Source: Alicyclobacillus mali NBRC 102425 (GTDB taxonomy: Bacteria > Bacillota > Bacilli > Alicyclobacillales > Alicyclobacillaceae). From it: a stretch of DNA of 60,090 nucleotides. A program made the translations under genes and the position numbers. The stretch is from contig NZ_BCSG01000027.1 of NCBI RefSeq assembly GCF_001570745.1, positions 1 to 60,090 of the forward strand. The letters are read 5' to 3'. Under the pieces are notes generated by a model that worked only from the letters and a program-made list of their open reading frames with translations, was not told the origin of the DNA and did not search any database. Shown here in pieces: positions 1 through 5,408 of this stretch (position 1 is its first letter; the number at the start of each line of letters is the position of its first letter).

Positions 1-483
1 TCGGCGAGGGCTCCGCTTGCGCTCCGTCCGCAGCCGGACGAGGCCGGGATGTGGGAAGAACCAGGCTCGTGAACAGATACAGTGCCGCGACGATGGCGCA
101 GGATGCCCAATAGGCGACCTTAGTGACGACCGGTGCCAACACAAAACTCGCGACCATGCGCCCCACCTGGTTTGTTCCCTGGATCAGCGCGTTGGCCTGC
201 TGCCAGGACTCCTCAGGAAGAAGTTGACGAACCGCCGTACCCACGGCGGGGAAATACACGCCCTCCGTGAACGCCATTACGATGATGAAAGGCATCATGA
301 TCCAAAGGTCCGTGCGTGGAAACGAGACGGCCAAGGCGACGCCGGCAGCCATGAGGGCAGCCACCGAAGAAGCGCGGCGCATCACGGCCACGGCAGGACT
401 GCGCTTGTTCCACCACGCGGACGACGCGGAACCGACGACCCGCGGGATGGAGGTCAACGTAATCAAGAAGCCCGCGCCCTTGC
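1..483 (-). pseudogene. MFS transporter fragment, 5'-truncated and running off the left edge
   Basis: The minus strand has an open frame from about position 483 down to the window edge. It encodes a hydrophobic protein resembling the N-terminal half of a major facilitator exporter. A TM2-like stretch (LITLTSIPRVVGSASS) is followed by a basic loop with RR, a further membrane segment, and the family-like run RQLLPEESWQQANALIQG before TM5 and TM6. The expected TM1 of about 40 residues is missing. Its place is taken by the promoter and leader of folD on the other strand. No ATG with a ribosome site is visible; a TTG at 466 is the best in-frame start. The gene is probably decayed at its 5' end, but a short functional version cannot be excluded because the 3' half is outside the window. 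Confidence 0.55.
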
Positions 484-508
484 GCGCCGTGTTCCAGCTT
501 GCTATATT
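480..508 (+). promoter_or_regulatory. folD promoter
   Basis: TTGCGC at 480-485 and TATATT at 503-508 are separated by 17 bases, a good vegetative sigma match. Transcription would start near 515, about 55 bases before the riboswitch aptamer. Confidence 0.6.
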
Positions 509-570
509 TTCAGTGGAACCTTTCGAAGCCGTGGGTTCTTTTGCTATGCCTTCACAATCGAAGACGTTCC

Positions 571-640
571 GCTGTGCGACTGGCGGCTTAGCGTGGAGTA
601 CCACGAGGGAGCACAGCGATATCTGCCGACCGCCTGGGCC
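571..640 (+). ncRNA. ZTP (pfl) riboswitch controlling folD
   Basis: The segment carries the conserved parts of the ZTP/ZMP aptamer in order. An outer helix pairs GCTGTG (571-576) with CACAGC (612-617). The core CGACTGGCGG lies at 577-586. A small hairpin pairs GTGG (593-596) with CCAC (601-604) and is followed by GAGGGAGC (605-612). After a short linker comes the hallmark ACCGCCTGGGC (629-639). ZTP riboswitches sense 5-amino-4-imidazole carboxamide riboside phosphates, which accumulate when 10-formyl-tetrahydrofolate is short, and they commonly precede folate one-carbon genes such as folD. The motif was recognised by eye and not scored with a covariance model. Confidence 0.88.
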
Positions 641-670
641 CGACGCACCCAGGCGGTCGTTTGCATTTTC
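628..670 (+). terminator. Riboswitch expression platform (intrinsic terminator)
   Basis: GACCGCCTGGG (628-638) pairs perfectly with CCCAGGCGGTC (648-658), followed by a broken T-run (TTTGCATTTT). The left arm is the same CCGCCTGGG that the aptamer needs when ligand is bound. Ligand binding should therefore prevent termination and allow folD to be read, making this an ON switch. Confidence 0.85.
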
Positions 671-736
671 ACGAGAGGCCAACGCCGGCTAAACGACCCG
701 CTCGTGACCCATTCTAATCCCAGGAGGTTGTCCGCC

Positions 737-1594
737 ATGCCGAAACCGTTGCTTGGCCGTCCCGTCGCCAAAGCGTTGTCCCATGATGTCAGGAAGACCG
801 TGGAGACCTGGAAGTCGCGCGGCGTGCAGCCGAAACTCGTGACCCTGCTCGCCAATGACGATCACGCCGCGAGCGTGTACGCCAACCAAAAGAAGCGCAT
901 CGCGGAGCGGCTCGGCATCCAGTGCGACGTCATGGAGCTGCCGCAACAGAGCGAGACGGAGGCGATTGTGCGCGAAATTCTGGCGCTGAACGACGATCCG
1001 TCCGTCCACGGCATCATGATTGAGATGCCGCTCGCGCCTTCGGTCGACGTGCAGCGCGTCGTGGGCGCAATTCACGCCTTGAAGGATGTGGACGGGCTGT
1101 CGCCGTGCCACTCGTTCGCCAAGCCGACACCGGAAGCCGCACTCTACCCCGCGACGCCGCTCGCGTGCATCCGCCTGCTCAAACACTATGGCTACGAGCT
1201 CAAGGGTGCCGACGTCACGCTCGTCGGCTGCGGTCAGACCGTCGGCATGCCGCTCCTGCACCTGCTCATCGCCGAAGGCGCGACCGTGGCCGCTTGCCAC
1301 GAGCACACGCGCGATGTCCGCGCCCATTTGCGCGACAGCGAAATTGCCATCGTCGCAGTCGGAAAAGGCGGCCTGCTCGGCCCTGACATGGTACACGAGG
1401 GCCTGACCGTCGTCGATGTGGGCATCTCGCAGGGGGAAAACGGAGACGTGCAGGGCGATCTCGCGCCGGAAGCCGCGGCGAAGACGAAGGCCTATACGCC
1501 AACGCCCGGCGGCGTGGGCGCCGTCACCACGGTGCAAATCTTCGCCAATCTCATGCACGCCATGGAGCTCCAGGAAGCCGCAGGCATGGTGTAA
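737..1594 (+). CDS. folD: Bifunctional methylene-THF dehydrogenase/methenyl-THF cyclohydrolase FolD
   Basis: FolD interconverts 5,10-methylene-, methenyl- and 10-formyl-tetrahydrofolate with NADP in the cytoplasm, supplying one-carbon units for purines and formyl-Met. The 285-residue length is typical. The catalytic Tyr-x-x-x-Lys is seen as YANQK near residue 52, followed by the folate loop DVDGLSPC, the nucleotide-binding GCGQTVGMP and the C-terminal TPTPGGVGAVTT. The ATG at 737 follows AGGAGG with ideal spacing, so the longer open frame upstream is not used. The gene is monocistronic, is preceded by a ZTP riboswitch and converges with cysA. Confidence 0.96.
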   Translation: MPKPLLGRPVAKALSHDVRKTVETWKSRGVQPKLVTLLANDDHAASVYANQKKRIAERLGIQCDVMELPQQSETEAIVREILALNDDPSVHGIMIEMPLAPSVDVQRVVGAIHALKDVDGLSPCHSFAKPTPEAALYPATPLACIRLLKHYGYELKGADVTLVGCGQTVGMPLLHLLIAEGATVAACHEHTRDVRAHLRDSEIAIVAVGKGGLLGPDMVHEGLTVVDVGISQGENGDVQGDLAPEAAAKTKAYTPTPGGVGAVTTVQIFANLMHAMELQEAAGMV

Positions 1595-1675: not shown

Positions 1676-2707
1676 TCAGCGCGGAAAGATAAACCACCTC
1701 GTCACGTTCATGTGCACCCACGCGCCCGGGGACCAGCGATGGCGATCCGCACTCGGGACGTGAACCTCCCACACTTCGCCATCCTTCGTGCGAATCCAGC
1801 ACGCGCTGTACGAGCCTTTGAAGGCGGATCGCACCACCTGCGCGTGCGCTTCGCGTTCGCTCGCAGGCTGAAGCTCGACATCCTTGGGGCGCACCACCAC
1901 GGCCACCTCCGAACCATCAGACACGGCGGGATCGACGGGCAGAGCCGCGCCCGCCACCTCGATTCGGCCGTTTTGCACGGCGCGCGTCCACACGTTGGAT
2001 TCCCCGATAAAGGAGGCCACGAAAAGCGTCCCAGGCTTTTCATAAACCTCTTCCGGCGTCCCGAACTGTTCGACGTTCCCCTCGTGCAGGACGAGCACCC
2101 GATCCGCCACTTCCAGCGCCTCCTCCTGATCGTGGGTGACAAACACGCTCGTCACGCCCATTTCATCGTGGACCTGGCGCACAAACGTCCTCAGTTCACG
2201 CCGAATCTGGGTGTCAATGGCGGCGAAGGGTTCGTCAAAGAGGAGCACCTGCGGGCGAGGAGCCAATGCGCGCGCCAAGGCCACGCGCTGCTGCTGCCCT
2301 CCCGAAAGCTCGTGCGGAAAGCGATTCGCATACGACTCCAGCCGCATGAACCGCAGGAGTTCCCTCACGCGCGCGTCCATCTCGTCCTTCGGAACCCGTT
2401 TTTCCCTGAGGCCAAAGGATACGTTGTCATAAACAGTCATGTGCTGAAACAGCGCGTAGTTCTGAAACACGAGCCCCACATTTCGCTTTTGAGGAGGCAG
2501 ATCCGTGACCCGCTTGCCTCCAATCCACACATCGCCCTTGGTTGGACGTTCGAGTCCCGCGATGATGCGCAGGATGGTGGTCTTTCCGCTTCCGCTCGGA
2601 CCCAGCAGTCCCACCATCTCTCCCTCGCGAATTTGGAAGGAGACCCCTCGGACGGATCGCGCGCCGCCTGGGTAGATATTTTCAACGCCGACGAACTCAA
2701 TGGTCAC
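1676..2707 (-). CDS. cysA: Sulfate/thiosulfate ABC transporter ATPase CysA
   Basis: This is the ATP-hydrolysing subunit of the sulfate importer encoded with sbp, cysT and cysW. The 343-residue protein has Walker A GPSGSGKTT, a Q-loop, the signature LSGGQQQR, Walker B VLLFDEP and the switch His in FVTHDQEEAL. A regulatory C-terminal domain of about 100 residues follows. The GTG at 2707 is preferred because it sits behind GGGAGG; the open frame continues a few codons further up. It overlaps the end of cysW by 11 bp, which suggests translational coupling. CysA-type subunits of sulfate and of molybdate or iron importers look alike; the neighbours decide for sulfate. Confidence 0.9.
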   Translation of the reverse strand: MTIEFVGVENIYPGGARSVRGVSFQIREGEMVGLLGPSGSGKTTILRIIAGLERPTKGDVWIGGKRVTDLPPQKRNVGLVFQNYALFQHMTVYDNVSFGLREKRVPKDEMDARVRELLRFMRLESYANRFPHELSGGQQQRVALARALAPRPQVLLFDEPFAAIDTQIRRELRTFVRQVHDEMGVTSVFVTHDQEEALEVADRVLVLHEGNVEQFGTPEEVYEKPGTLFVASFIGESNVWTRAVQNGRIEVAGAALPVDPAVSDGSEVAVVVRPKDVELQPASEREAHAQVVRSAFKGSYSACWIRTKDGEVWEVHVPSADRHRWSPGAWVHMNVTRWFIFPR

Positions 2708-3506
2708 GCAGGTTCCTCCCCCCTGCACGCTTCAGGAATTGCAACAGCAGGATGAGTGCAAACGAGGCCAGCGCCAAAAGGGCGGACACCGCATAGGCAG
2801 CCTGCATTTCGTTGTTGACGGAGGCCTGATACACGAACAGCGTCGCGGTCTCGGTCACCATGACGATGCTGCCAGACACCACGAGCACCGCCCCAAATTC
2901 ACCCAATGAACGGGCCGTGGTGAGGGCCAATCCGTACAAAATGCTCCACTTCAATTGGGGCAGCCACACGCGCCACAACGTCCGCCACGGCGATGCGCCG
3001 AGCACGTACGCAGCCTGTTCTTGCGTGTCGCCGATGGCGCGAATGGCTGGCACGGTTTCATGCACGATGAAGGGAAGCGTCACGAAGATGGTCGCGAGCA
3101 CCATACCCGGAAAGGCGAATGCAACCTTCACATGGATGTGCAACAGGAATGCCCCGATGAACGCGTTCGGCCCATACACGACGATGAGTGCCAACCCCGC
3201 GACCACCGGAGATACGGACAACGGCAGTTCCACCAGCCACTGCACCATCCGCCAACCTGGTGCGCGTCTGGCAATCCAAAACGCCATGGGAAGGCCGAGC
3301 ACCAGGTTGACGAGCAGAGTCACCCCGGTGATTTCACCCGTCATACGAAGCGCGAAGAGCGCCTCCTGCGAGGTCACGCTCTGCCAAAATGGGCCCCAGC
3401 CTCCGGCCAAGGCGCCTACGAGGACCGCGGCGAACGGAACCCCCACCAGGAGCAACAGCCACACATACGCTATCGAAGTCCCGACAACCGTCCAAACCTT
3501 AGACAT
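2697..3506 (-). CDS. cysW: Sulfate ABC transporter permease CysW
   Basis: This is one of two membrane permeases forming the sulfate channel with CysT. The 269-residue product has about six membrane segments and the EAA-type cytoplasmic loop (EQAAYVLGASPWRTLWRVWLP) that docks on the ATPase. The ATG at 3506 follows GGGAGGGA and is better than the upstream possibilities, which would add a 31-residue non-membrane leader. It overlaps cysT by 8 bp and cysA by 11 bp. Confidence 0.9.
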   Translation of the reverse strand: MSKVWTVVGTSIAYVWLLLLVGVPFAAVLVGALAGGWGPFWQSVTSQEALFALRMTGEITGVTLLVNLVLGLPMAFWIARRAPGWRMVQWLVELPLSVSPVVAGLALIVVYGPNAFIGAFLLHIHVKVAFAFPGMVLATIFVTLPFIVHETVPAIRAIGDTQEQAAYVLGASPWRTLWRVWLPQLKWSILYGLALTTARSLGEFGAVLVVSGSIVMVTETATLFVYQASVNNEMQAAYAVSALLALASFALILLLQFLKRAGGRNLRDH

Positions 3507-4341
3507 GACGGGTCCCTCCCTCAGCTGCAGCCCATCGCACGGCCCTTCGTCTCCCGAGAAGTGCCAGAAGGCGGGCCTCAAGGACAAAGGCGAGGGCACA
3601 CAAGAACATGAGAATCACCGCTGCGGCGGCCGCACCACGCTGGTCGTAGTTCTCGAGGAGTCCATAAATGTACACCGACGCCACCTCGGTTTGCATGGGC
3701 TTGTTGCCCGACACGATGACCACCGACCCAAATTCAATCATGGCGCGTGTGAAGGTGAGGATCAGCGCACTGCCAAGCGCATGGCGAAGCGCCGGGACGA
3801 TGACCTTCAGCCAAACCCGACGTCCAGACGCGCCGAGAACCCAAGCCGCTTCTTCCTGACGCACATCCAGCGCCTGAATGGCGGGCTGCAAAGCTCGAAC
3901 GGCGTACGGCACCGTGACAAACAGGAGGGCAAAGAGGATCCCAAGCCGCGTGTAGACCACCGCAACCCCGTGTTCGGTGAGCCACCTGCCCACGGGCGAT
4001 ACCGGCCCGTATAGAAGGACGAGCATGAGTCCCGATACGGTGGTGGGGATGGCGAGCGGCAAATCGATCACGGCGTCCAGCGCGCCCGAACCTACTGGCC
4101 GCCACCGTTCCAAAACGACGGCGATGAGAAGCCCCATCGCCGTGTTGAGGATCGCCGTGACGAACGAGATCGCCAGGGTGAGTTCAAACGCCCGAATCGC
4201 GATTGGACTCATCACGGCCTGCACGAAGGAAGACCAGCCACCGGAAAACGCCTGTTGAATGACTGCGCCAAGCGGCAGGACGAAGATGAGGATGAGCGCG
4301 CCCGAAATGAGGGAATCAAGCGCCATTCGCCCGAAACGCAT
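3499..4341 (-). CDS. cysT: Sulfate ABC transporter permease CysT (CysU)
   Basis: This is the partner permease of CysW, 280 residues with several membrane segments and the EAA-like loop EEAAWVLGASGRRVWLKVIV. The ATG at 4341 overlaps the TGA of the binding-protein gene (TGATG) and has GGAGGGG upstream. The gene order binding protein, CysT, CysW, CysA is the usual one for sulfate systems. Confidence 0.9.
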   Translation of the reverse strand: MRFGRMALDSLISGALILIFVLPLGAVIQQAFSGGWSSFVQAVMSPIAIRAFELTLAISFVTAILNTAMGLLIAVVLERWRPVGSGALDAVIDLPLAIPTTVSGLMLVLLYGPVSPVGRWLTEHGVAVVYTRLGILFALLFVTVPYAVRALQPAIQALDVRQEEAAWVLGASGRRVWLKVIVPALRHALGSALILTFTRAMIEFGSVVIVSGNKPMQTEVASVYIYGLLENYDQRGAAAAAVILMFLCALAFVLEARLLALLGRRRAVRWAAAEGGTRHV

Positions 4342-5408
4342 CAGCGCCCCTCCAACACTTGATTCCAAATGCCGTTTTGTCCATAGAGCGTTTTGTTGAT
4401 GCTGGACCAGCCTCCCACGTCCGCCGCTGTGAAGAGGTCCGCAGGCGTCTTGAACTGCTTCTCCGCCTCGGCCTTCAAGGAAGGATTGACTGGGCGGAAG
4501 CCGTACTGCATGAATACGCGCTGCGCATCCGGCCCCTCGAGCCAGTTGATGAAAGCCTGCGCCACCTGGCGATCCCCGTGCGCATCCGCATTTTTATCCA
4601 CCAGCGCAATGGGGTTCTCGATGAGCATGGTGGACGAAGGAATCACTTCGTCGAACGTCTTGAGATGATTGCTCTTTTCGAGAATCTCGTTTTCATAGCT
4701 CACGCACGCGTCGCCGACGCCATTGACGAACGTCGTCATGGAGGCCTCTCCCGACTTATCGAGCACCTGCACGTTCTTCACAATGGCGGCAAGCAGGGAC
4801 TTTGCTTCACTGGCCGAACCATGGCGCAGGGTGGCGTAATAGATGGCGTTGATATCCCATTTGGCTCCTCCCGATGTCGCCGGATTCGGAAGGTCCACAA
4901 TCACGCCAGGCTTGGCGAGGTCCGCCCACGTCTCGATGTGCTTCGGATTGCCCTTGCGCACCGCAATCGCGACAATGGAATCCGTGACCATCCCGTGCGT
5001 CGGCGTGTCCTTCCAATTGTGCGTGATGAGCCCGGCCTTTTGGATTTTGTCAATGTCGGACTCCAGCGAAAGTGCGGCCACGTCGACCGGCAGTCCGTTT
5101 GCAATCGCCGTCGCCTCGGCCCCAGAAGCATCAAAGGACGCTTGAAACCGCACCGTTTGACCCGTCTTCTGCTTCCAATACTTCTGAAACATCGGAAACA
5201 ACTTTTGCTCGTAGATCTGCTGTGTGACACTGTAGGACCCGAAATAGAGCGTGACAACCTTCCCTTTGACGTCCGCGGATTTGACCGACGCGCTCGCTGC
5301 GCTCGACTCCTGCGAGGAATTGGGCGATCCGCATCCGCTGACCAAACCTCCCAGCACGGCGCCCACCATCGCGCTCACACCTAACGCCTTCTGCCACGGC
5401 TTTCTCAT
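4341..5408 (-). CDS. sbp: Sulfate-binding lipoprotein
   Basis: This is the extracytoplasmic receptor that captures sulfate or thiosulfate for CysTWA. It is 355 residues long with a lipoprotein signal ending in LVSGC (Cys26), so it should be lipid-anchored on the outer face of the membrane. The mature part shows family motifs such as FGSYSVTQQIYEQKLFPMF, the ligand loop SFDASGAEA and PNPATSGGAKW. The start follows AGGGGG at about 10 bases. It is the first gene of the operon, behind a promoter shared in design with the sulfonate operon. Confidence 0.92.
   Translation of the reverse strand: MRKPWQKALGVSAMVGAVLGGLVSGCGSPNSSQESSAASASVKSADVKGKVVTLYFGSYSVTQQIYEQKLFPMFQKYWKQKTGQTVRFQASFDASGAEATAIANGLPVDVAALSLESDIDKIQKAGLITHNWKDTPTHGMVTDSIVAIAVRKGNPKHIETWADLAKPGVIVDLPNPATSGGAKWDINAIYYATLRHGSASEAKSLLAAIVKNVQVLDKSGEASMTTFVNGVGDACVSYENEILEKSNHLKTFDEVIPSSTMLIENPIALVDKNADAHGDRQVAQAFINWLEGPDAQRVFMQYGFRPVNPSLKAEAEKQFKTPADLFTAADVGGWSSINKTLYGQNGIWNQVLEGR

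Follow-up and report, generated by a model that had tools for sequence, protein, structure and literature searches.

Among the genes linked to pfl RNAs, folD is one of the five most common, and terminators overlapping the 3′ part of these RNAs have been noted as well (Weinberg et al., PMC2864571); the arrangement of a pfl riboswitch, a terminator overlapping it, and folD behind them has been on record since that report in 2010. In the ZMP riboswitch of Thermosinus carboxydivorans, the ligand stabilizes a pseudoknot and impedes the terminator (PMC7337938), and a 2026 paper describes a covariation model of aptamer and terminator for the ZTP class (PMC13273304). Since folD and an overlapping terminator have already been described, the switch reported here belongs to a known class. 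A literature search, with most subscription papers outside its reach and with folD indistinguishable from "fold" as a search term and hence a blunt one, showed no Glu-type FolD under ZTP control among the titles and beginnings of abstracts listed and no paper joining riboswitch, ZMP, and Alicyclobacillus; it does not prove their absence.

The ZTP aptamer and its downstream gene

The window, i.e., the whole stretch of DNA analyzed (60,090 nucleotides), is the entire contig C27 of an Alicyclobacillus genome comprising 85 contigs and 2.79 Mb. The genus was supported by the product of folD-B, the gene following the aptamer, which gave protein matches of 94% in A. sendaiensis and in A. fructus. Scoring of the window with the Rfam covariance models, which an earlier note made from the sequence had suggested, revealed a match to RF01750 (the ZMP-ZTP model) that covered the full model (1-86) with 57.0 bits against a gathering threshold of 39 (E value, 1.2e-6). 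This was the sole Rfam match reaching its gathering threshold within the window, and it lies 90 nt ahead of folD-B on the same strand, in the leader of a one-carbon gene (Table 1). The ZTP riboswitch with overlapping terminator proposed in the earlier note was thus confirmed; its coordinates, 571 to 670, covered the terminator, but took in the aptamer only from the sixth base on. Since the aptamer alone was no more stable than its shuffles (z score of +1.2; 179 of 200 shuffles as stable), its fold energy is useless as evidence. The first aptamer domain (566-620) had a computed model energy of -11.8 kcal/mol at 60 °C.

Table 1. Features around the ZTP riboswitch, with positions in the window
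Feature	Position	Strand	Remark
MFS transporter gene fragment (PF07690)	2-505	-	
Probable promoter, TTGCGC-N17-TATATT	480-508	+	TGC ahead of the -10 element; 8 of 12 consensus matches
ZTP (pfl) riboswitch aptamer	566-646	+	Rfam RF01750; aligned with 5 close relatives
GGCGG, pseudoknot partner of CCGCC (630-634)	582-586	+	Predicted, read from the sequence
Terminator left arm, CGACCGCCTGGG	627-638	+	Contains the aptamer's CCGCCTGGG
Terminator right arm, CCCAGGCGGTCG	648-659	+	Fold; pair variation in 37 leaders
GGCGG of the right arm	652-656	+	Rival of 582-586 for CCGCC
U-rich tail, TTTGCATTTTC	660-670	+	7 U among the first 10
Ribosome-binding site, AGGAGG	722-727	+	GGAGGT conserved in 6 of 6 aligned species
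folD-B, FolD paralogue (285 aa)	737-1594	+	Glu for the catalytic Gln (GIMIEMPLA)
ABC transporter: ATPase with CysA C-terminal domain and two permeases	1676-4368	-	Convergent with folD-B

The promoter block, consisting of TTGCG and TGCTATATT.TCAGTGGA, was conserved in all six aligned species, with diverging flanks. The ORF of the MFS fragment spans this probable promoter on the opposite strand, and the upstream sequence on the MFS side was the same in just one of five close species (L041).

FolD-B shared 31% identity with the other FolD of the genome, encoded on contig C11 and here termed FolD-A. Both Pfam domains were matched above their cut-offs (PF00763, 105.6 bits; PF02882, 142.7 bits). The best NCBIfam score was 214.6 against a cut-off of 411, and all models among the 25 of 30 matches listed were of the FolD type, each under its cut-off; the NCBIfam FolD models are narrow, and such scores alone say little. 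By sequence, the best match in the PDB was 6v6y (184 bits), and the dinucleotide loop was altered to GCGQT. Of the residues expected in a bifunctional FolD (Tyr, Lys, Gln, and Asp at human positions 52, 56, 100, and 125), Gln was replaced by Glu, and the rest were kept. Glu occupied the Gln100 position in all 38 FolD-B proteins of the host's family (Alicyclobacillaceae), which represent 15 genera, and in 9 of 9 FolD-B relatives outside the family, versus Gln in 40 of 40 other FolDs of the family. Tyr48, Lys52, Asp117, and Asp119 were invariant in the 27 proteins aligned.

In a tree of 97 FolDs, built without 7 rows that were duplicates or nearly identical and without 22 of the 32 FolDs from the phylum, FolD-B formed one clade with the genes of three further families of the same class (f36, f40, and f15; SH-aLRT, 99). 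The FolD-B of one Alicyclobacillaceae genome, G037, grouped with f36 (SH-aLRT, 99); much of the inner branching was weakly supported. The gene under the switch is a diverged FolD paralogue rather than a housekeeping-type folD. The earlier reading was therefore right on the switch and incomplete on the gene: a FolD-family gene does follow the riboswitch, but it is the second, diverged FolD of the genome and carries Glu in place of Gln.

Distribution of the ZTP link, FchA, and cofactor ligands

FolD-B was present in 38 of the 41 family genomes; the three in which it was unmatched (G031, G033, and G039) are 72-85% complete. A contig-edge FolD fragment (G025:C96:3-332) was excluded from every count. 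A ZTP aptamer was located 59-212 nt upstream of 37 of the 38 FolD-B genes, versus 2 of the 40 other FolDs of the same 41 genomes with an aptamer within 600 nt. The one exception was G037, with no ZTP match in the 294 nt of contig before the start codon.

Across 299 phylum genomes, we found 72 ZTP matches in 52 genomes. A link between ZTP and folD common across the phylum was not found: a FolD lay near only 2 (L165 and L204) of 69 ZTP loci, inspected as stretches of about 2-3 kb and representing 69 of the 70 loci outside the own genome (G487:C2 was left out). The own genome carries a second ZTP riboswitch (G000:C37:9335-9416, L001; 67.7 bits) before serA, the gene for D-3-phosphoglycerate dehydrogenase, which is another source of one-carbon units. 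By eye, serA-like ORFs were also seen behind ZTP matches at several other family loci, a PurT/PurK-like ORF near the match at L039, and SDR-like ORFs near those at L026 and L034.

FchA-like genes (PF04961) were found in 4 of the 41 family genomes (G001, G019, G028, and G037), and three of these, G001, G028, and G037, coincide with the three family genomes that have FolD-B as their sole FolD. Among 47 genomes with FolD-B, FchA was present in all 11 that had no Gln-type FolD versus 2 of 36 that had one (Fisher test, 4.5e-9); within the family, the counts were 3 of 3 versus 1 of 35 (4.7e-4), and neither test allows for the relatedness of the genomes. The tree offered two independent contrasts on supported branches (four including unsupported ones), with a mean of 1.9 out of 2 in the expected direction and 0 in the opposite one; with only two supported contrasts, significance is out of reach. 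The fchA gene adjoins folD-B in G037, in all seven f36 genomes examined, in G054, and in G160. FolD-B is the sole FolD in 9 of these 10 genomes, the exception being G160 (f40), where ZTP aptamer, FolD-B, and fchA stand in a row and a second FolD is of the Gln type. For the four FchA-like proteins tested, the NCBIfam FchA model was the best match, yet with scores of 145-168 against a cut-off of 275. A dehydrogenase-only FolD partnered by FchA would fit the FolD-B clade as a whole; the window's own genome is without FchA and has the Gln-type FolD-A.

With Glu at this site in all 38 family proteins, and with FchA accompanying FolD-B in each of the 11 genomes that have no Gln-type FolD, FolD-B is probably a dehydrogenase without cyclohydrolase activity. 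Lys and Gln carry the active-site chemistry in FolD (PMC3368264; PMC3338484). The E. coli FolD variant Q98H kept about 8% of its dehydrogenase activity, and resistance mutations in this enzyme almost abolished the cyclohydrolase (PMC5688156). In silkworm MTHFD, replacing Gln with Ala reduced kcat/Km for NADP+ by a factor of only 1.7 (PMC6443876), and Gln is therefore not essential to every activity in every enzyme. Moreover, Gln to Glu is a milder change than Gln to His, which counts against a loss of the cyclohydrolase.

The same data bear on the possibility that the riboswitch simply precedes an ordinary bifunctional FolD, with the differences due to drift and the FchA pattern to coincidence or shared descent. 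Such a textbook arrangement would agree with the rank of folD among the commonest pfl-linked genes (PMC2864571), with the Tyr, Lys, and Asp residues and the two Pfam domains retained by FolD-B, and with the small number of independent contrasts. It is nevertheless unlikely, given Glu throughout FolD-B over 15 genera and in the nine outside relatives, and FchA in all 11 FolD-B genomes that have no Gln-type FolD.

In the window's genome, neither Fhs (PF01268) nor FchA (PF04961) had a match, and 10-formyl-THF should therefore come via FolD, barring a route other than these. The gene for FolD-A, the housekeeping-type copy (G000:C11:9412-10221, L004), runs into the start of an ORF that looks like xseA by eye. 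The active-site Tyr of FolD-A is His in all six closest genomes (G000, G002, G003, G009, G012, and G014), and FolD-A of this species group sits on a long tree branch (1.11; the tree included four of the six). This His-bearing FolD-A would have to supply the cyclohydrolase in the window's species group. A weakening of FolD-A, if true, would raise the importance of the ZTP-controlled copy.

In the human and Leishmania enzymes, a combination of Arg, His, and Ser binds the 2′-phosphate of NADP (PMC3368264). In FolD-B of the family, the Arg of the NADP-loop GRS was replaced by Cys, Phe, or Ser in 37 of 38 proteins and the Ser after CH by Glu, Ala, Val, or Ile, likewise in 37 of 38 (Glu in 15 of 15 genomes of the window's genus). 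Both residues were absent from all 37 ZTP-linked family proteins and from that of G160; the only family FolD-B keeping both was that of G037, the one without a ZTP match. Since the 2′-phosphate ligands Arg and Ser are missing, ZTP-linked FolD-B might prefer NAD+, the use of which would favor oxidation in the cell. That cofactor choice shifts the equilibrium has been stated for mitochondria (PMC5718140). The proposal of such a preference is weak: human MTHFD2 turned out to be dual-specific (PMC5718140), ZTP-linked FolDs of other kinds (G032, G040, L204, and L165) keep both Arg and Ser, L143 lacks both residues as well as a ZTP match, and the Ser is replaced by Arg in 12 of 14 FolD-A proteins from the genus. 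A general rule that ZTP-linked FolDs always lose these ligands was rejected, as FolDs of the "QHPVP" kind (G032, G040, and L204) and L165 retain both; the loss does occur in FolD-B (all 37 ZTP-linked proteins of the family and that of G160), L140, and L141, with too few independent events on the tree. L140 (G129), L141 (G207), and L143 (G217) form a separate clade of Gln-type FolDs with GHS and CH(A/I/V) and without the Arg and Ser ligands; two of the three have a ZTP match.

A wider reading would extend to the whole family: the alarmone ZTP would induce a cyclohydrolase-less, NAD+-linked methylene-THF dehydrogenase, with hydrolysis performed by another FolD or by FchA and with the inducible enzyme driving oxidation toward 10-formyl-THF, a logic like that of mitochondrial MTHFD2. 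We regard this as possible but on the whole doubtful.

Terminator and proposed switch

The terminator stem comprises 12 perfect, GC-rich pairs closed by a 9-nt loop; the earlier note had called it perfect, correctly, and counted 11. As it had also observed, the hallmark CCGCC (630-634) is shared with the left arm of the stem, which overlaps the 3′ part of the aptamer, an expression platform that is common, although not universal, in the class. When folded as RNA, positions 620-672 had a z score of -5.2, with none of 200 shuffles as stable, and the stem had a computed model energy of -17.6 kcal/mol at 60 °C. A consensus scan of positions 380-760 returned neither a terminator nor a promoter, including the one at 480-508, for which it was the stricter test; it missed the terminator because the 9-nt loop exceeds its loop limit of 3-8.

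In every one of the family's 37 leaders with a ZTP aptamer ahead of FolD-B, CCGCCTGGG could also pair downstream. Since the same loose test was passed by 299 of 740 shuffled leaders, a background of 40%, it is weak by itself, and we therefore gave weight to the stem and to the one pair that varies. This pair, just outside the fixed hallmark, was A-U in 27 leaders, G-C in 6, G-U in 3, and U-A in 1, and hence paired in 37 of 37, whereas shuffled leaders reached a mean of 30.7 and a maximum of 35 (the relatedness of the leaders being uncorrected).

These observations leave little room for a switch that acts on translation, or for termination that is incidental, with a fortuitous or weak stem and a poor U-tract. 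The tail UUUGCAUUUUC is indeed interrupted, by GCA, and both the empty consensus scan and the pass rate of the shuffled leaders would be in line with such a reading. However, the 12 perfect GC-rich pairs and their z score, the standard pairs of four types at the variable position in all 37 leaders, and a ribosome-binding site that lies 62 nt 3′ of the stem and not within it make it very unlikely.

Instead, we consider a transcriptional ZTP ON-switch controlling a FolD-B dehydrogenase that has probably lost its cyclohydrolase to be the likely explanation of the locus. Its mechanism is taken over from the class, because published members follow the same logic, and is backed here by conservation. 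Transcription of the leader would start at the promoter near 480-508. A shortage of 10-formyl-THF would let ZMP/ZTP accumulate, and the ligand would stabilize the pseudoknot between GGCGG (582-586) and CCGCC (630-634), depriving the terminator of CCGCC, so that folD-B is transcribed. Without ligand, the 12-bp stem would form and transcription would end. Pseudoknot and terminator would thus be mutually exclusive, as the sequence and the published relatives imply. The product would be an inducible 5,10-methylene-THF dehydrogenase whose cyclohydrolase has probably been lost with the exchange of Gln for Glu, leaving the hydrolysis step to the other FolD (here the Gln-type FolD-A) or, where there is none, to FchA. 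ZTP-linked FolD-B may moreover favor NAD+ and thereby drive methylene-THF toward 10-formyl-THF. That FolD-B is a repurposed FolD-fold protein and no folate enzyme for the supply of 10-formyl-THF, as its divergence (184 bits to its best PDB match) and altered GCGQT loop might suggest, is highly improbable for a protein that is the sole FolD found in 11 genomes, stands beside fchA in 10, has its Tyr48, Lys52, Asp117, and Asp119 invariant in 27 of 27, and is governed by a one-carbon riboswitch.

The computed energies suggest that aptamer and stem could fold at high temperature. T. carboxydivorans is a thermophile, and the Alicyclobacillus host is a thermoacidophile. Special insight from a thermoacidophile, as implied by the earlier note, is not supported here; a ZMP riboswitch from T. 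carboxydivorans has already been studied (PMC7337938).

Comparison with known systems

The riboswitch extends a well-studied class by another member and, on its own, changes little. With its 12-bp terminator and its hot-growing host, it also lends itself to folding studies. The interest lies in its conserved link to a FolD of the Glu type that probably has no cyclohydrolase activity. Family models would name folD-B bifunctional, whereas its sequence and genomic setting point to a second enzyme, of the dehydrogenase type, that has stayed under ZTP control across a bacterial family; if true, ZTP control here targets the oxidation step alone.

Compared with the pfl riboswitch of Clostridium beijerinckii and that of T. 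carboxydivorans, the RNA class itself is the same, with the same sharing of CCGCC, a predicted ON-switch logic, and a target, folD, that is among the usual ones of the class. The present locus differs in its 12-bp GC-rich stem, its short and broken U-tract, and its thermoacidophilic host. With a bifunctional FolD (Thermus 6v6y), FolD-B shares both Pfam domains, the Tyr-xxx-Lys motif, and Asp. In contrast to that enzyme, it has Glu for Gln, GCGxT for GRS, and no Ser after CH, and it stays below the NCBIfam cut-offs among the models listed. A Lachnoclostridium FolD (L011), which has Arg at the catalytic Gln site and an adjacent fchA gene, resembles FolD-B in its loss of Gln and in this adjacency; unlike FolD-B, this clostridial FolD has Arg instead of Glu and DVDC instead of DVDG, and keeps the GRS and CHxKT motifs of an ordinary FolD.
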